This document shows positions 37,854-60,975 of a stretch of 64,000 nucleotides of DNA, piece by piece. The position numbers and the translations under genes are program-made. The notes below the pieces were generated by a model. It was not told the DNA's origin. It saw nothing but the letters and a program-made list of their open reading frames with translations, and ran no database searches. The DNA is taken from positions 1-64,000 of IMG/VR virus record IMGVR_UViG_3300044612_003086, one strand, 5' to 3'. Source of the DNA: a virus. The stretch's first letter is position 1; every line of letters begins with the position of its first letter.

Positions 37854-40800
37854 TTATGAAGATTTTTTCTTAGTGTTTTTTATGGGCAATCGTGGCTGTC
37901 CTTCATCGCCTGACTCAAAAGCAAGTAGGGCCTTTCTGAACCGTTCAATTGTTTCCCTAGTAATTGTTTGGCCGCCATCGCCGCCGGTATCAATAAAGGC
38001 AGGACTCAGGTCATCTGCCCCAGACTCGAGCAACTCCCACAGAACGTTCAGGTTGGTTACGGCTTTTTGGTTTTCCTGCCCACCCAAATCCCTGGCTCGC
38101 GGAAGGAATTGCGCTGTTGGGTAAATATCGGTTACATCAAGATAAAGAGTTCCGTCATCCACCCATCCGCCGATAGCGACTCTTTCTGCTCCATCCGATG
38201 GGTTGTTGAATACTTCAGGTCCGTGAAAGTCCAGCCATGCAACGAATGTGTCAATAAGTTCTTCTGTTGGCTCTCCATCCGGAGTGAAGTCTGCAGAAGC
38301 TGGAAAAATCATTCCTTTTTTATTTCTTGCTACTGCTATACCATTTTTTATGTCGTCCATTGTGTCTAGCTCGACAGTAAAACCGCCTTGGAATCCTTTT
38401 TGCAGAGTCTTTCTTGCCAGTAGGCGTTTCTCTGGGGTTTCAGCATATTTGACCTCAACCTGTGATGCTATTTGCCGTATCTGCTCTGGAGAGTACTTAA
38501 CTCTTTTTTTCTTCACAGTAGCTCCAGATGAAAGGCGTGGCGCACTGCTTGAATTTCGTTCCTGAGATTTTTCTGCCAGATTTCCCCACGGTTCTGTATT
38601 GCCGTCAACAAACAGTATTGAATAAACATCTTCACGCAGTTTTTTATTTAGCGCATATGTCTTCAACTTATCATTTGGGTGAAGTATCGCAACTACTGCC
38701 TCAGCAAATGCTTCAGCTTTATTTGTATTACCGTAAGAAGAGAGCGTCATCGGACTATCTGTAACCGAATTTATGTCAACCCCGTCAGAGAATCTGGCCA
38801 TCATGTCAGGATTCATAATTACATCGTTATACTCGGACGCAACCTGCAGCGCTTGCGCGTAACGCTTATCCTGAGGGTCACCAGAACCAAAATAATGGCG
38901 ATTTTTTGGCTTGCCAGCTAGTTCGACGTCTTTTAGTGCTCGGAAATGCAACCAATGTCCCCACTCATGGGTTATGACTCCAGCTATTGATTTGTCAATA
39001 GTGTTATCACGGCTCGTTACGAGTCTCGTCGGGTCCATGGTCACGTTTTCGCGTGCTGTGTCTAGCGAATTTGATTCCCTGTCGATAATCAGTCTTCGGT
39101 TAAAGGATACGGAATTAAGGAATGGAGTTGTCCTGGCGCGAACATATGGGTCTTTTGAACCGATTCCGCGAACACTCTTTATTTGTTCAAGTTTTGACGA
39201 AACCTGAGGCAAGCTTTCATACGCCCTCGAAGCATCAGCTGTTTGCATGTAGAAAACGGGAGCACCGTGTGTCTCAAATGCCCACTTTAGTTTTGGATTT
39301 GATTCGACAGCTTGCTCAACAGCGTTACGCACAGCTTCAACTGCTTCGGGGGAGAAATCTATATCATCCCATGGATTGTTTTTAAAATACTCGTCATGGA
39401 CGGCGTTGAATTTTTTTACGTATTCTTCAGAGTCTCGTCCTCCTGGCGCAAAATCATCAATAAGCATTTCAAAGTATTGCTCTTTTGATGTTGGGACGAG
39501 CAATTCAGACATTTGTCTTGGAGTCATGCCCTTTAGCCAGTTCGACTTGCTTCTGCGAACATTTCCGCCAAGTTCACTTTGGTCTCCGTATTTATATTTT
39601 TTCAATTGATGCGCTTTTATATCTGGCTGATTCATTTTGAGTATTGGACGCTCGCCTCCAGACGAAAGACGGTTAGAGGTTCGTCTATTTTTCCTGCCAC
39701 CACGCGATAGGAGGCGATTAACCACAGTCCTTGGAGCTGACTGCTGGCTCTTGCGCTTGATGTCACGCTTCATTAAAATAGTGACGCCTTCTCCGGCTCT
39801 AAATAGCTCATCGGCTTCTTCAAAATCAACAAGCTGTTCTGCTGTTGCATTTGTTTTGAATTTTCCGTTTTTTGATTTTTCGTAGAGCGATGTTATTCTC
39901 TTCTTTTCTTCGTCCGTAAACCAGTTTCGTGATGAATCATTTACCGCATTATCTATTACTTCTATAAATTTTTGCTGCTCGCCCTGCGACGCCCATGTAA
40001 AGCCATTTCTAGCCCAGTGTGTTGCGCCCATATAGTCGCCTTGTTTCCCAGACTGAGCGGAAGCCAATATTGTTTCTGCATCAATCTCTCTGTAAACAGC
40101 CTCGTTTCTGGCGTTGAAAATGCTCGCTATTCCATTGCCTCGAGCTGGGGCACCGACGGATAGTGAATCATGGACAATTATCTTATTTCTTCCATTGATT
40201 ACAATTGTTCTGATTGAATCAGCAATTACCAGTTGGCCTTCGTTTTGCCCTTTTTCGAAGTCCTCCATATCTCCAATTCCGTCCCAACGTTCCCGCCGTG
40301 GAATTCCTGCTTGAGTAAGTCGTTTTACCGCGTCCTTGTCTTTTGTTTCAATGGTGAATTTCAAGCTCACGCTTGTGGATGGCCGCTTTTTCACGCCTTC
40401 CATAATTCCATCGACCCCAAGGGCTTCACTTGCTTCTTCGAATTCTTCTTCGTCCATTTTCTGTACGACGACGTCTGTCGGTGAAACAACAACATCAAAT
40501 GTTCTACCAAGATTTATTTTTTCTCCGTTTGTTGCCGTGACTATAACGTCGTTTCTTGTCGTTATTTCACCAGAAAACATATCTTTCGCTGCTGACTTTA
40601 TTGATTCTTTGAGGGCTTTTCTTTCTTCGCTATCCGCGAGAACCTCTTCTTCGAATACATCGTATTCAATACCCTGAATTTTCTGAAATGAGGAATATCT
40701 TGGGTCATCTTTGGTAATCCACTCATCTTCTTTTTGGAGTTCGTCATTCAGCATCAGCGCAGAGAAACTCTCTACTCCTGCTCGCTGTTCGTTTGATAGG

Positions 40801-43800
40801 TAATTTTCCTCACTTACGACTGAATCGTAAATTTTACCTGAAGACAAACCGCGTATTTCATTAATTCTTTCCAACAAGCGATTATCTTCATTGATGTCAT
40901 ATTCTTCTGCAAGAATTTTACGAATTTTTCGTGCGTAGTTGTATCTCCTTCTAAATAAAGCACGAAGTTGTTTATCTTTTTCTTCATCACTTCTTCTAAG
41001 TGAGTTCGTACTAATATCCCGTATTGAGTCATATGCCAAAATAGGATTGTGAACTTCTATTTCATAAGAATAAGTTGTACGCGTATTGCCATCTCTGTCT
41101 TTGACTTCTTTTTGTATATCCCTGAGTACGTATCCAAATTCTTTAATTGAATCATCATCGCTAATCGCTTGAAATAAAATCCCACTGTCAGGTTTGAGTG
41201 AGGTCTCAATCCGCCCGCCATCATATTCAACTGCAGCTTTTGGAAGTTTGAATGTTTTTGGCTGAATTGCTCCGTCTTGCCCAGATGACAAGGAGTTGCG
41301 TTTATCTGGGTCATAACCCCACTCGAGCCATGAGTCACCGTTGGTGTAGATGTCTTTTGCTTTGACGCGTTTTTTGATTATTTCATAGTCCCCACGAAGA
41401 ACTCCCTCACCGTGCTCAACTGCATACTGTCGTACGGGGGTCACCCAGTCACCTGGATTTATTGATACAAGCTCAGATTCTTCCTGATTGCGTAGAGCAT
41501 CTAGCTCAGATGCAAGTTTGTCGTAATAGTCGCTGTGATGGAGGTTTGTTGATACACCACGAGGTACCCGACCATATTGGAGAATGTATTTCTGCTGTTT
41601 TTCGAGTCTTAGTATTTGCTCATCCCTCGATATCGGAACAGCCCTATACACGGTCACATCGGCATTCGGTTTATTTCTGAAACGACGAACCACATCTACT
41701 GCGGCTGCGTCAAAACTGTCATTACCCGTTCCGTAGTAGCGGATACTTGAGGAGGAATAAACATCATCTGGGTAAACACCAGTCAAATTGTGAAGTGGTG
41801 CTCCAGAATCTGCATCTGGGGCCATATGCATTCCTCTGTAGTCGCCATCATCTCCAGATGAAAGACGGCGATACTCAGCGACATCTTGTTCGAATTTATC
41901 TACCGCTGCTGCAAATTTTGCATTATTTGAATTGAACTTTGCATCCCTTTTGTCTTTGTCCAAAACGTCAGTTGACCAACCATTAATGATGGCTCCATCG
42001 ATAATCGCCGACATGACAAGACCGGTTGCTTCAGCATCTGCATCTGCCGTATGGTGTTTTTCACCTAAATCAACATTGAGGTATTTGGTTATGGCGGCAA
42101 GTCCATTGGACGGCTTCTTGTTCCCGTCTGCATCAAGAACGAATGGGCCGTCGTCTGTTTCTGGCGTCCAACGAGGAAGGGCCATATCTGAAATTTCTTT
42201 AGTGTCTAGGTAGCCCTTGGGTCTCCATGTAATGCCTGATTGAGATAGTGCCAGTTCGAGGACGTCTTTGTCAAATGATGCGTTTTGTACGCCGAATATT
42301 GCATCATCTCCAGCAAACTCGGCAAGTCGTTCATGTGCCTTTTTGATAGATGTTTGGGTTTTTAACCACTCATCTGTCAGCGGATTGCCATCTATGTCCT
42401 TGAGGTTCGCGCGAGACCATTCACCAAGAGATTCTTCTGGGTCCATGAAAATATTGATGCTGTCAATTATTTTTCCGTCTTTCATCTTCACAGCACCAAA
42501 CTGTGTTGGTTGGCCATTGGAAGAAGGTTTGCGGAATTCATCAAATACCAGACCAGTCGTCTCGTAATCAAAGAAAATTATTTCTCGATTTTTGTACTTG
42601 TCCTTAAATTCCTGCCATGTTTTAGCATCGCCAAATTCTTGCTCTGCTCCGCCAATAAAAGCACCGTATGTTGGTTTTCTAGGATAAGAAGGCCTGTCTG
42701 AGCCGCTAGACAAACGCTTTGAGTAGTCAATCGGTTCGTTTATGTCAGCTAGAAGCTCATCAATGTCTACATATCCCCTTTCATCATGCATTTTGACAAT
42801 TCTTGGAGTCATCGCAAACAATATGTCGTCATAATCAGTCTGGCTGAAACCCTGAGGCTTCGAGAGTCCGGCAATCGGCTTGTTTTTTCCTAGTACTTGC
42901 CACTCCCCACCAGGACCAAGGATGTCGGTAATGTCATGACCCCATTTTCCTACACCAAACCATGATGTGCCTCTACGATGTCGTGCTGTTGCTAAATCCT
43001 GCAACCATAATGTGCGTATTTCCTTTATCATCGAGGAAAAGGCTTCAGTTGGATATCTGTCGAGATATCCAGAATATTTTGTAGCAGCTTGATACAGACC
43101 AGAGTGAGTAGACATAAAGTTCTTGTCATCACCAAGTGCAGCCAATACCGACTGCATCTCTGATGCTGCTTTTTCTTCGACTCCTAGATTTAACTCGACC
43201 TCACTGATAATCCCGTCAAGATTAAATGCATTGCCTTTTCTGGCATTTATGTCAGATATTCTCAGGCTGTCACCAACTTCCCAGCCTTTTGTAAATTTAT
43301 CGTCAGAAGCAAATGCCACGTACGGACTACCAATGATGTTCGCAATAGCTCTAACTTCGTCTTGATTCTCAATTACTGAAGACTCATCATTTGCGCGAAG
43401 CTTTTGCAATAATGAGCGATATGCTTTGACTTTGACTGACGTTGAAGCAAAATCACGGCGTAAATTTCGTGACTGTGTCTCATTTAGCTCGCGTGTATTA
43501 CCTAGTATCTGTCCAGAGCCAATTCCTCCACCTTTTGTGCGTTCAGGTATGAATATTCCATCATCTAGTTCTGCTACTCCATGATGAATAAAGTACGCGT
43601 TAGTTGGTGTTGGTGAAATAAAAAGGTTATCTTGTTCTTGCTGACTCAGAGACCTTATCGAATCAGCTTCGCTTTTAAGAACTGCAATTTTTTCTTTTGG
43701 TATTTCTTCAACATCTAGAACATTTTGTTCATCTCGTATTTTTTTGCGATTTTCTTCAAATTCTTGAATTCGTAGGCTTTCTTCAGCAAGATAAAGTTTT

Positions 43801-44471
43801 TCTTTTGCTTCCGTAACCCTACTTGACAGGGCTTTTTTAATTTCGCTTTCCCGTTGCGCAGGGTCGTTAATGTTTCTACTATCGAGGTCTTGCTCGATGA
43901 GTGCTACGTGTTCTTCACGTGTTTGATTTGCTGGATTTATTCCAGGTTTATCAATATCGATGGTGTCGACTGGCTCGTTGCTTCTTGAATTACCGCTAAG
44001 AACGACACCGTTATCTTTTCCTGTCCAATTCCCGGACCGCTCTAATTCGGCAATTGCAGCCCTTAGCCCTTCAACTCTTTTACGAGCCACAGCAACTCTT
44101 TCTTCTACTGGGCTGGTTTGTTCTGTTGTGTTTGCCTGCCCAGAAGAGAGTCGCACGGCTTGTCGAACCGCCTGGGTTTCATCGTTTGTGCCTATAAACC
44201 TTGGACGCGTTGTGCCCTCATCGACCCACCCGTCTGCATCCGGGTCGAAATTACTGCCGGTTGGTTTTCTGCTTCCTGGCACCCCTCCTGTTGGAACATC
44301 AATGTCTCCACGACGACGCCTACGTCCGCCTCCAACATTTGGCCTATCAATAAGACGACTGCCCACATACGAGGCAAGGCGACGACCAATGGCCTTGGTT
44401 TCCTGCTCTAGCTCTCTACCTTTTCGGGAAAGCTCAAACGGAATCTCAAATTCCTCATCTGCGTTAGACAT
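37854..44471 (-). CDS. Giant multidomain protein with LSSG-separated modules
   Basis: 2205 residues. The motif LSSG, usually RLSSG, occurs seven times (ending at 111, 590, 873, 1064, 1212, 1605, 1983) and splits the chain into modules. 590-873: DEDDh exonuclease (FDYETTG with D635/E637; D734; H807, D812). 873-1064: possible ADP-ribosyltransferase (VYRAVP at 941-946). 1212-1605: GNAT-like ARGNGIA at 1443-1449. 1605-1983: zinc peptidase HEWGH at 1834-1838. An EF-hand-like DPDADGWVDEGT is at 76-87. This fits the polyvalent proteins of phages, which may be packaged and injected. TATCAT ends 7 bp before the ATG, so a leaderless start is likely. Confidence 0.75.
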   Translation of the reverse strand: MSNADEEFEIPFELSRKGRELEQETKAIGRRLASYVGSRLIDRPNVGGGRRRRRGDIDVPTGGVPGSRKPTGSNFDPDADGWVDEGTTRPRFIGTNDETQAVRQAVRLSSGQANTTEQTSPVEERVAVARKRVEGLRAAIAELERSGNWTGKDNGVVLSGNSRSNEPVDTIDIDKPGINPANQTREEHVALIEQDLDSRNINDPAQRESEIKKALSSRVTEAKEKLYLAEESLRIQEFEENRKKIRDEQNVLDVEEIPKEKIAVLKSEADSIRSLSQQEQDNLFISPTPTNAYFIHHGVAELDDGIFIPERTKGGGIGSGQILGNTRELNETQSRNLRRDFASTSVKVKAYRSLLQKLRANDESSVIENQDEVRAIANIIGSPYVAFASDDKFTKGWEVGDSLRISDINARKGNAFNLDGIISEVELNLGVEEKAASEMQSVLAALGDDKNFMSTHSGLYQAATKYSGYLDRYPTEAFSSMIKEIRTLWLQDLATARHRRGTSWFGVGKWGHDITDILGPGGEWQVLGKNKPIAGLSKPQGFSQTDYDDILFAMTPRIVKMHDERGYVDIDELLADINEPIDYSKRLSSGSDRPSYPRKPTYGAFIGGAEQEFGDAKTWQEFKDKYKNREIIFFDYETTGLVFDEFRKPSSNGQPTQFGAVKMKDGKIIDSINIFMDPEESLGEWSRANLKDIDGNPLTDEWLKTQTSIKKAHERLAEFAGDDAIFGVQNASFDKDVLELALSQSGITWRPKGYLDTKEISDMALPRWTPETDDGPFVLDADGNKKPSNGLAAITKYLNVDLGEKHHTADADAEATGLVMSAIIDGAIINGWSTDVLDKDKRDAKFNSNNAKFAAAVDKFEQDVAEYRRLSSGDDGDYRGMHMAPDADSGAPLHNLTGVYPDDVYSSSSIRYYGTGNDSFDAAAVDVVRRFRNKPNADVTVYRAVPISRDEQILRLEKQQKYILQYGRVPRGVSTNLHHSDYYDKLASELDALRNQEESELVSINPGDWVTPVRQYAVEHGEGVLRGDYEIIKKRVKAKDIYTNGDSWLEWGYDPDKRNSLSSGQDGAIQPKTFKLPKAAVEYDGGRIETSLKPDSGILFQAISDDDSIKEFGYVLRDIQKEVKDRDGNTRTTYSYEIEVHNPILAYDSIRDISTNSLRRSDEEKDKQLRALFRRRYNYARKIRKILAEEYDINEDNRLLERINEIRGLSSGKIYDSVVSEENYLSNEQRAGVESFSALMLNDELQKEDEWITKDDPRYSSFQKIQGIEYDVFEEEVLADSEERKALKESIKSAAKDMFSGEITTRNDVIVTATNGEKINLGRTFDVVVSPTDVVVQKMDEEEFEEASEALGVDGIMEGVKKRPSTSVSLKFTIETKDKDAVKRLTQAGIPRRERWDGIGDMEDFEKGQNEGQLVIADSIRTIVINGRNKIIVHDSLSVGAPARGNGIASIFNARNEAVYREIDAETILASAQSGKQGDYMGATHWARNGFTWASQGEQQKFIEVIDNAVNDSSRNWFTDEEKKRITSLYEKSKNGKFKTNATAEQLVDFEEADELFRAGEGVTILMKRDIKRKSQQSAPRTVVNRLLSRGGRKNRRTSNRLSSGGERPILKMNQPDIKAHQLKKYKYGDQSELGGNVRRSKSNWLKGMTPRQMSELLVPTSKEQYFEMLIDDFAPGGRDSEEYVKKFNAVHDEYFKNNPWDDIDFSPEAVEAVRNAVEQAVESNPKLKWAFETHGAPVFYMQTADASRAYESLPQVSSKLEQIKSVRGIGSKDPYVRARTTPFLNSVSFNRRLIIDRESNSLDTARENVTMDPTRLVTSRDNTIDKSIAGVITHEWGHWLHFRALKDVELAGKPKNRHYFGSGDPQDKRYAQALQVASEYNDVIMNPDMMARFSDGVDINSVTDSPMTLSSYGNTNKAEAFAEAVVAILHPNDKLKTYALNKKLREDVYSILFVDGNTEPWGNLAEKSQERNSSSAPRLSSGATVKKKRVKYSPEQIRQIASQVEVKYAETPEKRLLARKTLQKGFQGGFTVELDTMDDIKNGIAVARNKKGMIFPASADFTPDGEPTEELIDTFVAWLDFHGPEVFNNPSDGAERVAIGGWVDDGTLYLDVTDIYPTAQFLPRARDLGGQENQKAVTNLNVLWELLESGADDLSPAFIDTGGDGGQTITRETIERFRKALLAFESGDEGQPRLPIKNTKKKSS

Positions 44472-58092: not shown

Positions 58093-59496
58093 CTACTTGC
58101 TGTTCTTTGGATTTAGGCGATTCATTATCGCATCTTGGCCCGGAAACTTGGGACCCATAACGCGTCCTGTTTCTGGCTTCTTTTCTACTCGCGGACCTGG
58201 TGCGATTGTTGGTGGCTGTGGCCTATCAGCTCCTGGTCTTTTTGATGAAGGAGTTCCAGGATTTGGTTTTTGTCCTGGTGGGTACTTCTTTCCAGGACTC
58301 GGAATACGGTCTGCTGGCTTGCTTGGTTGAGGCCTACTTGGGCTTGGGTATCTGTCGGCTGGCTTGGTGTCTTTTGGCTCCGGTTTTTGCCCAGGAGGAT
58401 ACTTTTTCCCTGGACTTGGATATCTGTCGGCAGGCTTCTGGTCCCTTGGTTTGGATGGTGACGGCTTTTGCCCTGGTGGGTATTTCTTTGGCGGGTCTGG
58501 ATACCTATCTGCAGGCTTCTGGTCACGTGGTTTTGAAGGAGATGGCTTCTGTCCCGGAGGTGATGATGGTCCCTTTGGAAGACCGTCAGCAGATGGCTTA
58601 CCATCTGCCCCTCTTAGAACCTTGTCGAAAGCTGCTCTAGCTCTTGCACGAGCATCTCTTTCTTCCTTGCTTCTATCCTCAACACGTCGATTCATTTTTA
58701 TTCCCTGAAGCTTTAGCTGCTGACGAACAAATTTTCTTCTCTGCGCTTCATAGTTCGCATCGCTTGAGCGTTGATATGGTTTTCTTTGCTCTTGTGGAGT
58801 GCCATCGAAAATCATTCCATCGCTGTCGTGGTCTACGGCTTCCGCTGGATTTGTTCCGGTAGGAGCAGCGCCGCCAGCGCGTTGGCCAATTGACATTCCA
58901 AGAGCGGCTTTGTACTCATAATCTTCAAGTTCATCTGACTTCTTCTTTGAGTTTTGGTAACGCTCAAGAAGTCTTTTCCCTTTTGCAGCAAGCGCTGCTG
59001 CATCTTCCATATTTTTGGGAACTGGTTCCCCCCATGCTGCAGCAGAAAGAGCAAGTCTTGTTGCTCTTCCTTTTTCGTCTTTCATTGGTCCACGTGGGTT
59101 GGTGAAAAATCTAGTAAGGAATGAACCCTTGCGACGCATTTTTTCCGGTGTATCAGCTGGGCCTCTTACTCCTGGCTTTAGATTTGCGCCTTCTGTTCTC
59201 TTGAAGAACGCTCTACCAGCAGCTGTCAAACCACCCTTTGGGTCTTTGAGTGGTTTTTTCCCGCCCTTTGTTTTTATGTATTCAGGAATTGCCGAGATTT
59301 GTTCCTCGGATGGGAATTCGAATTGACCGACACGATTAGAACCGTAATACTCATCGAATATCGGCATGAAATCTTCTGATTTAAGTTCGATTAGCGTTTC
59401 ATCAATTAGCTGCTCGAGCTCATCTTGTTCTTGGATATTGTTCGCTATTTGCTCTAATTCGGCAAAAAGCTCTTCATCGCTTTTGATTTGTGACAT
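58093..59496 (-). CDS. DUF6321-like protein with Pro-rich C-terminal repeats
   Basis: 467 residues from ATG 59496 (GGAAGATGCG upstream). GGLTAAGRAFFKRTEGANLKP, RRKGSFLTRFF and AAWGEPVP around 85-165 match the DUF6321 pattern of aquatic phages. HDSDGMIFDGTP near 225 is an EF-hand-like loop, as in the giant protein. About 310-440 consists of four to five Pro/Lys repeats of the type KPADRYPSPGKKYPPGQ. Directly downstream of the capsid gene; head-associated role likely. Confidence 0.7.
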   Translation of the reverse strand: MSQIKSDEELFAELEQIANNIQEQDELEQLIDETLIELKSEDFMPIFDEYYGSNRVGQFEFPSEEQISAIPEYIKTKGGKKPLKDPKGGLTAAGRAFFKRTEGANLKPGVRGPADTPEKMRRKGSFLTRFFTNPRGPMKDEKGRATRLALSAAAWGEPVPKNMEDAAALAAKGKRLLERYQNSKKKSDELEDYEYKAALGMSIGQRAGGAAPTGTNPAEAVDHDSDGMIFDGTPQEQRKPYQRSSDANYEAQRRKFVRQQLKLQGIKMNRRVEDRSKEERDARARARAAFDKVLRGADGKPSADGLPKGPSSPPGQKPSPSKPRDQKPADRYPDPPKKYPPGQKPSPSKPRDQKPADRYPSPGKKYPPGQKPEPKDTKPADRYPSPSRPQPSKPADRIPSPGKKYPPGQKPNPGTPSSKRPGADRPQPPTIAPGPRVEKKPETGRVMGPKFPGQDAIMNRLNPKNSK

Positions 59497-59534
59497 CGCA
59501 TCTTCCATGGTTCAATTTTCGCACAGATATGAAA

Positions 59535-59625: not shown

Positions 59626-60975
59626 TCAGCTTGGCTCGTTGTCGAAGTCAACTTTGACGAATGCTTCTGGACGCTTGACAGCAAGGGCGAGTCTCTGCTC
59701 GGCCAAGATGACGATTGCGTTGCGCACGAAGAAGTCTGAGTGCTGTTCCGAAATTCGGATTGAAGCCTCTTCTCTGTCGTACAGCTGAGCACCGGTACCG
59801 AATGCACCGACCAGGGCTGTTCCCTCAGCGATTGCCGGGGTGTCAACGACTGGCATTCTCCAAACGCGTGGCTCGCCACCCATTGCCACTGACACAGCGA
59901 CCAAGTACTGGCCGTTTGTATCCTTGGTCAATTCGATGTCTTCCCAGTCGTTCGGGTGCAACACGATGCCGGATGGCTCGTAGTAAGCAAGGAACGAGAG
60001 GGTTGCGGCACGACGAATTGCATCAGCCTTTGTGTCTGGAACTGGTGTGTCTGCACCGTCTGACCATGCGTACTCCTGAATGTTTGGAGTCTGAAGAACA
60101 CCAAGAAGGTTTTCGCCAGTTCCATCGCCATTCAAAATCTGCGAGTCTTCTAGGAGACGCAGACCGTACATGAGTTCGTTGTCGATGATTGAACGTAGCT
60201 GTGGCTCATCGGCGAGGACGTTGCGGTGTGCAGCTTCCCAGTGTGCCAATGTGCGAACAGGAGCCTGCTCACCAACGAATGCGAACGATGACTGCGGCTT
60301 GATACCGAAGTTGCCACCAGAACGCTCAGCAACTGAAGATGCCGAGTTAACACCATGGCCAGCCTGAAGGGTTGTGAAACCGAGCTGACGGAAGTATTCG
60401 ATTACTGCTGCAGATGTTCTGCGAACTGGGAACAGGTCGCGAACACGCTTTGTACGCATTGGAGGAAGAACCATGGCATCGCGCTGAACGTTTCCGAAGC
60501 TGCCGAGGCGGCTGTCTGTAACTAGCGTTGTTGGCAATGCTGAGTAAACGTCCTTTACGTTGTAAGCGGTCAATGAAGCAGCGACTTGCCATGGTGCAAC
60601 CATGTTTGCGCCGTTACGGCCACCATTGAGTGTCTTGAACTCAGGTGACTCGATAAACATTTGACCGATTGACTTGATTTCGCGTGAGCTCAATTGACTG
60701 AGGTCTGCAGCTGCTGCAGCATAGCTTGAAGCTACTGCTTCTCCCTGTGGCTGTGATGACCATGAGTCAACATCGCCCATTGTCTGAAGGTCAGCGAGCA
60801 GTGACTTAATTGACTTAATGTCCTGCATGTTCTTGTCGAATGCTGACTTCTGCTCAGAAGAAACAACTACTGTGCCTTCCTCGATTTTGAATGAGTCCGC
60901 AATGGCTTTATTGTCTGCCATTTTGGTGCGAAGAGCTGACTGCAGCTCTTCAATTCTTGCTTTGTCTTGTGACAT
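59626..60975 (-). CDS. Major capsid protein, HK97 fold
   Basis: 449 residues. N-terminal helical delta-like region to about 75, then SSREIKSIGQMFIESPEF, VRDLFPVRRTSAAVIEYFRQ, EQAPVRTLAHWEAAHRNVLADEPQLRSIIDNELMYGL (E-loop to spine helix) and GIVLHPNDWEDIEL, all hallmarks of HK97 major capsid proteins. Strong ribosome-binding site (GGAGC) and own terminator. Confidence 0.92.
   Translation of the reverse strand: MSQDKARIEELQSALRTKMADNKAIADSFKIEEGTVVVSSEQKSAFDKNMQDIKSIKSLLADLQTMGDVDSWSSQPQGEAVASSYAAAAADLSQLSSREIKSIGQMFIESPEFKTLNGGRNGANMVAPWQVAASLTAYNVKDVYSALPTTLVTDSRLGSFGNVQRDAMVLPPMRTKRVRDLFPVRRTSAAVIEYFRQLGFTTLQAGHGVNSASSVAERSGGNFGIKPQSSFAFVGEQAPVRTLAHWEAAHRNVLADEPQLRSIIDNELMYGLRLLEDSQILNGDGTGENLLGVLQTPNIQEYAWSDGADTPVPDTKADAIRRAATLSFLAYYEPSGIVLHPNDWEDIELTKDTNGQYLVAVSVAMGGEPRVWRMPVVDTPAIAEGTALVGAFGTGAQLYDREEASIRISEQHSDFFVRNAIVILAEQRLALAVKRPEAFVKVDFDNEPS

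Follow-up and report, generated by a model that had tools for sequence, protein, structure and literature searches.

What purpose is served by a tetrapeptide that recurs along the whole length of a giant viral protein? The protein in question, hereafter called C, has 2205 amino acids and is encoded by an open reading frame on the minus strand at 37854-44471 of the window, the 64,000-nucleotide stretch analysed here (positions 1 to 64,000 of the 133,891-bp IMG/VR virus record IMGVR_UViG_3300044612_003086). The tetrapeptide LSSG is its commonest 4-mer and occurs seven times, at residues 108-111 (44139-44150), 587-590 (42702-42713), 870-873 (41853-41864), 1061-1064 (41280-41291), 1209-1212 (40836-40847), 1602-1605 (39657-39668) and 1980-1983 (38523-38534), all on the minus strand and preceded by R in five copies, by S in one and by G in one. 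Chance was considered as a source of these copies and ruled out, 0.065 being expected from composition. Our recount agreed exactly with the number and positions listed in a first-pass annotation made from the letters alone, which had read C as a polyprotein with a common cleavage or linker signal. On balance, we think it probable that C is a cargo polyprotein that is cut at LSSG, most likely by the S78 head maturation protease of the phage, and whose modules are ejected with the DNA.

The same record encodes two further LSSG giants, B (2458 amino acids, 65789-73165) and A (2954 amino acids, 74948-83812); A, B and C denote three gene types of giant protein, and coordinates labelled G000 are those of the window's virus record. 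A scan of IMG/VR with the N-terminus of A returned 315 relatives, 80 of which were kept, and many of their A proteins carry 2-16 LSSG each, where about 0.1 is expected. In 16 phage records read whole or to the contig end, the window's own included, the giants hold 216 LSSG where 4.1 are expected, and the remaining genes are at chance (12 found, 11.2 expected), the two groups having been separated by motif count and the giants comprising the A, B and C types together with a tape-measure-like gene. A de novo count of 4-mers likewise placed LSSG as the most over-represented. The first-pass annotation had proposed this search in related phages and had named lack of LSSG conservation in homologues as part of what would refute its reading; LSSG is conserved, and the reading was not refuted on this point.

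The copies in C are encoded by differing synonymous codons and so the signal acts at the protein level; similarly, 206 LSSG instances across related giants comprise 139 distinct 12-mers (171 expected from codon usage), which argues for selection on the peptide. That LSSG is the incidental coding product of a recombination hotspot or repeat in the DNA would fit both the coincidence of the tags with shuffled module borders described below and a slight preference for one codon at the second Ser (TCT, 0.49 versus 0.23 background in all giants), but given the diversity of the 12-mers, conservation that tracks the peptide, and a -1 residue that switches as an amino-acid class within phages, we hold this explanation to be extremely improbable. 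The Leu of the tag also favours one codon (CTT, 0.47 versus 0.33 background in all giants).

We then compared the C protein with 27 related records, 26 of which matched. Matched segments (for example 587-868, 870-1068, 1204-1605, 1595-1987 and 1966-2188) end at tags, the modules occur in a different order along the proteins of other phages (2, 6, 5, 3 in phage G015), and aligned modules from different phages start or end with [LFM]SSG. Tags 2 and 3 of C lie at such module borders, phages G022 and G017 carry LSSG at the border marked by tag 4, and four other phages carry [LF]SSG at that of tag 5. Borders of high-scoring segment pairs lie within 12 amino acids of a tag in 27.5% of cases for C, 15.9% for A and 19.8% for B, versus 7.0%, 6.1% and 3.4%, respectively, at random sites. 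The surroundings of the tags resemble linkers: the hydrophobic fraction within 20 amino acids of a tag is 0.209 versus 0.282 at random sites (sd 0.004), and when residues 1195-2000 were modelled with AlphaFold, all three tags of that stretch, tags 6 and 7 among them, fell in segments with a predicted local distance difference test (pLDDT) score below 50, while module 6, between two tags, has a pLDDT of 80-97 over most of its length. The polyprotein reading is thus well supported: the tag is multiplied in homologues, marks the borders of shuffled modules, lies in linkers predicted to be unstructured and varies as a set within each phage.

To assess this variation, we compared tags between giants of one phage that are not homologous to each other, leaving out sites in stretches homologous between types, and ran 2000 shuffles. 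Within-phage agreement exceeded the shuffles at positions -2 (z 6.2), -1 (4.3), 0 (3.1), +4 (3.4) and +5 (2.7), with 0-19 of 2000 shuffles as high, and was absent at -5, -4, -3, +6 and +7. The footprint thus runs from -2 to +5, about eight residues, a length that resembles what would be expected for a protease cleft. In phage G021, all 18 sites in the three proteins have R at -1 (RLSSG); G015 and G016 have mostly S at -1, SLSSG being found in G014-G016, and in G017 the tag has become FSSG throughout A and B and at most sites in C. A passive tag need not match between the A, B and C proteins of one phage, yet it does, and the variation fits one trans-acting recogniser per phage.

The tag changes altogether in sister clades, most of which lack LSSG and repeat GLAS, GFAS or GLRS, or G[LF]xS[RH]; further clades repeat GLAS, GFAS, GFSS or GLRS. 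A distant relative with 52% identity in the A region has no LSSG and seven G[LF]xS[RH] (0.15 expected, 0 of 5000 shuffles). In phages whose records were read whole, several giants of one phage carry the alternative tag: G040 has G[LF][ASR]S nine times in A and eleven times in a 3112-amino-acid giant, with no [LFM]SSG in either, and G035 and G041 are similar with GF[AS]S. Common to all tags is the core [LF]xS, and because this core alone is kept when the tag changes, we place the putative scissile bond after LSS (L-S-S|G), which would divide C into eight products of 110, 479, 283, 191, 148, 393, 378 and 223 amino acids. A genome scan for the host found only a marine metagenome-assembled genome (MAG) contig, which revealed an alternative tag. 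The Phycisphaerae MAG contig L223 (JASLZV010000001.1) holds phage head genes of the family studied here and is probably a misbinned viral contig.

Could the tag be an uncut linker or docking motif, one that makes modules easier to exchange or that binds to a component of the scaffold or portal, with the co-variation reflecting co-evolution with that partner? The tags do lie in linkers and mark the borders of exchanged modules, and any binding partner acting in trans predicts the same co-variation. An uncut linker, however, needs neither a specific sequence nor clade-wide switching, the obvious partner for a docking motif is the maturation protease that is itself fused to one tagged protein, and a tape-measure-like protein is tagged as well. 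We regard this alternative as quite unlikely.

Our favoured reading, cleavage of the tags, calls for an enzyme, and the A protein offers one. Its N-terminus is a head maturation protease (phrog_80 in PHROG, 5e-27; Pfam Peptidase_S78 PF04586, 1.2e-10, 42.2 bits against a curated cut-off of 21) in which His69 and Ser133 are invariant in relatives. The A gene is near those for the portal protein (Phage_portal, 1.3e-51; 83919-85985, directly upstream of A) and the major capsid protein (MCP; Phage_capsid, 2.5e-41; 59626-60975, minus strand). Because it is a maturation protease, present in cis on A and encoded beside the portal and capsid genes, S78 is the best candidate, and on these sequence grounds it appears to be the most likely cutter.

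The first-pass annotation had instead suggested the HExxH module of C as the processing enzyme, a role for which it is not the best candidate given the S78 protease fused to the neighbouring LSSG polyprotein A. That the tags are cut by one of the HExxH metallopeptidases inside the polyproteins, before packaging or after injection, would agree with the presence of HExxH in all LSSG-clade polyproteins examined, whether A, B or C, with the autoprocessing by MPTases that PMC5512222 proposes for P1 DdrB and others, and with tags in a tail protein. However, the HExxH modules differ in sequence context (HExxHWT in A, ArdC-like by eye, and different in B and in C), yet they share one tag per phage, and in the GLAS/GFAS phages G035, G039, G040 and G041 the S78 polyproteins carry 5-9 strict tags while lacking HExxH, which is present in giants other than A in these phages. 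We judge HExxH cleavage an unlikely alternative.

Two other proteins of these phages bear on S78 as the cutter. All 13 MCPs of the LSSG clade have L[ST]S[RHS]E immediately ahead of the N-arm; this may be a cut site, and its sequence is compatible with cleavage at [LF]xS. The tape-measure-like proteins, which start with MADE (G000 101817-106529, plus strand, in the window virus, with orthologues in other records), have in most phages [LF][SA]SG close to residue 36 and again at about 560-600, within a low-complexity linker, and 11 of them together hold 36 matches to a broad tag-like pattern versus 7 expected. This tail protein may also be cut, and the recogniser may act outside heads.

Several points weigh against cleavage by S78. 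No cleavage products have been seen, in a family whose sequences all come from metagenomes. Only a minority of segment-pair borders lie at tags. The phages share ancestry, so that the shuffles are not phylogenetically independent, and without G014-G017 only positions -2 and -1 retain agreement, at about 1 in 100. The relatives were retrieved through S78, which makes its co-presence with the tag partly a matter of ascertainment; its universal presence is therefore not evidence. Most of these phages also have giants with HExxH modules. The MCP, the classic substrate of such a protease, shows no more than a partial motif, L[ST]S[RHS], within the LSSG clade, and the sister clades are mixed with no uniform tag, so that the MCP is not a clear-cut positive control for the tag; and a tag in a tape-measure-like tail protein fits a head-confined protease less well.

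How might such a system work? An element of about 80 residues is common to A (537-619) and C (22-102) and is 71% identical between them in the window virus; in C it lies within an N-terminal region (residues 1-107, KAIGRRLASYVGSRLIDRP...DPDADGWVDEGTTRPR; 44151-44471, minus strand) that is placed like a targeting propeptide and is targeting-like by this position. In our proposed mechanism, C serves a tailed phage as a cargo polyprotein, which this shared N-terminal element would recruit into the assembling head; LSSG would serve as the recognition and cut site separating the enzyme modules; the S78 protease, N-terminal on A, would act in cis and in trans; and the enzymes so freed, among them the DEDDh nuclease, the GNAT-like module and the zincin, would be ejected alongside the DNA. 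We consider evenly balanced the broader proposition of a tag-based cargo system, in which a targeting element and protease tags allow phages to gain, lose and rearrange injected enzymes in the form of cassettes, the tag and the head maturation protease co-evolve clade by clade, and cut specificity is a phage-specific code common to all cargo chains.

Parts of this scheme are known. The polyvalent proteins of phages and conjugative elements, for which peptidase processing and co-injection have been proposed (Iyer et al., 2017, PMC5512222), share with the LSSG giants many enzyme modules per chain, MPTase modules and a late or structural gene setting, and C, with several unrelated enzymatic modules in one chain and mosaic exchange, has the architecture of a polyvalent protein. 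In that article, however, assemblin-like peptidases are noted in some polyvalent proteins and described as always C-terminal, and no repeated cut tag is mentioned in the sections consulted. By contrast, A carries its S78 protease at the N-terminus, and a single lineage-specific tag recurs across several giants, which also have an N-terminal element in common. Prohead proteases cut the internal proteins and Alt of T4 and the ejection proteins of SPN3US and phiKZ, the motif of the SPN3US protease being AXE, and N-terminal targeting propeptides are known (PMC7411985, PMC10052503, PMC3012670). The LSSG giants can be likened, from their sequences, to these systems in having a targeting-like N-terminal element in A and C, one short motif common to several giants that may be a protease site, and cargo that would be injected with the DNA; the T4, SPN3US and phiKZ cargos, however, are separate proteins that usually lose an N-terminal propeptide, whereas the LSSG cargos are concatenated with up to 16 tags per chain. 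Actinophages (Gordonia phages GMA6, Gray and DalanDe, Brevibacterium phage Cantare and Streptomyces phage Gilgamesh) encode a homologous S78 protease just before the major capsid gene, in open reading frames of 417-1635 amino acids rather than the roughly 3000 with tagged cargo found here, and no repeated tag was found in these cultured relatives. Polyproteins of eukaryotic RNA viruses have a protease within the chain and repeated cut sites between functional domains. Unlike them, the LSSG giants belong to a DNA phage, three or more appear to be processed as a set, and the cargo appears to be injected effectors and not replication machinery.

The first-pass annotation knew of no description of a repeated inter-domain motif that could be a cleavage site, and in the open-access literature we found no earlier account of the LSSG tag, of a shared lineage-specific tag or of a phage polyprotein with repeated cut sites. 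While polyvalent proteins and protease-trimmed internal head proteins are known, an S78 protease N-terminal to its own cargo, inter-module tags common to several giants and clade-wide tag switching are new with respect to the literature searched. If our reading is right, tailed DNA phages use genuine multi-cut polyproteins, a sequence-level cut code could identify which proteins hundreds of uncultured aquatic phages inject, and a targeting element combined with a tag would offer an easy route for loading foreign proteins into phage heads and releasing them there. Clades with different tags form a natural experiment on the co-evolution of maturation protease and substrate, in which each tag allele (RLSSG, SLSSG, KLSSG, FSSG, GLAS, GFSS or GLRS) gives a direct prediction.

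Between its tags, C comprises seven modules, all encoded on the minus strand. Module 1 (residues 112-586, 42714-44138) has distant homologues in G004 and G022 that are bounded by tags. Module 2 (residues 591-869, 41865-42701), labelled a DEDDh 3'-5' exonuclease in the first-pass annotation, is borne out as such by matches to Pfam RNase_T (3.1e-8) and a PolC profile (6e-15) and has eight homologues at 49-67% identity. Module 3 (residues 874-1060, 41292-41852) matches phrog_2579 (7e-32), whose sole PHROG label is 'ParB C-terminal domain', and its homologues in other phages are flanked by tags; a possible ADP-ribosyltransferase-like fold, proposed from sequence pattern, was not confirmed, and an AlphaFold model of residues 850-1240 was too poor to use (pLDDT 43). 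A family search with module 4 (residues 1065-1208, 40848-41279) gave no convincing match. Module 5 (residues 1213-1601, 39669-40835) is probably GNAT-like: nearly all top Foldseek matches to its model are acetyltransferases, which lends that earlier label some weight, although even the best of them has an E of 0.015. Neither module 3 nor module 5 found a useful match in PDB profile searches. Module 6 (residues 1606-1979, 38535-39656) is a conserved HExxH zincin-type peptidase module, as had been proposed, with HEWGH at residues 1835-1839 (38955-38969), H234, E235, H238 and downstream E residues invariant in 10 homologues, and only weak matches, to a bacterial zincin-type protease, in a PDB profile search. 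Module 7 (residues 1984-2205, 37857-38522), which contains GGWVDDGTLYLDV, has tag-preceded homologues in G006 and G021.

Further features were noted around the giants. A 471-amino-acid protein beside the capsid gene (58093-59508 of the window, minus strand) contains DxDxDGxxxDGT, which resembles DPDxDGWxDEGT of the targeting-like element. In four phages, the motif RCPxGxxxxxxFTDxxxxxC is common to the B polyprotein (65789-73165, minus strand) and a neighbouring protein of 664-727 amino acids (G000 62611-64662, minus strand, partly in the window), and is possibly a second targeting or assembly signal. By eye, A (G000 74948-83812) has SF1-helicase-like motifs, GAGAGKTTT and FFFDEAQD, between tags, which suggests an injected helicase. 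Lastly, an acidic protein of 540-600 amino acids (G000 73183-74805, minus strand; L223 18028-19830) ends in FGRAKDKxAAKxHIxxRA, which matches the C-terminal tail of the protease open reading frame of Gordonia phage DalanDe, as if cargo had been inserted between protease and scaffold.

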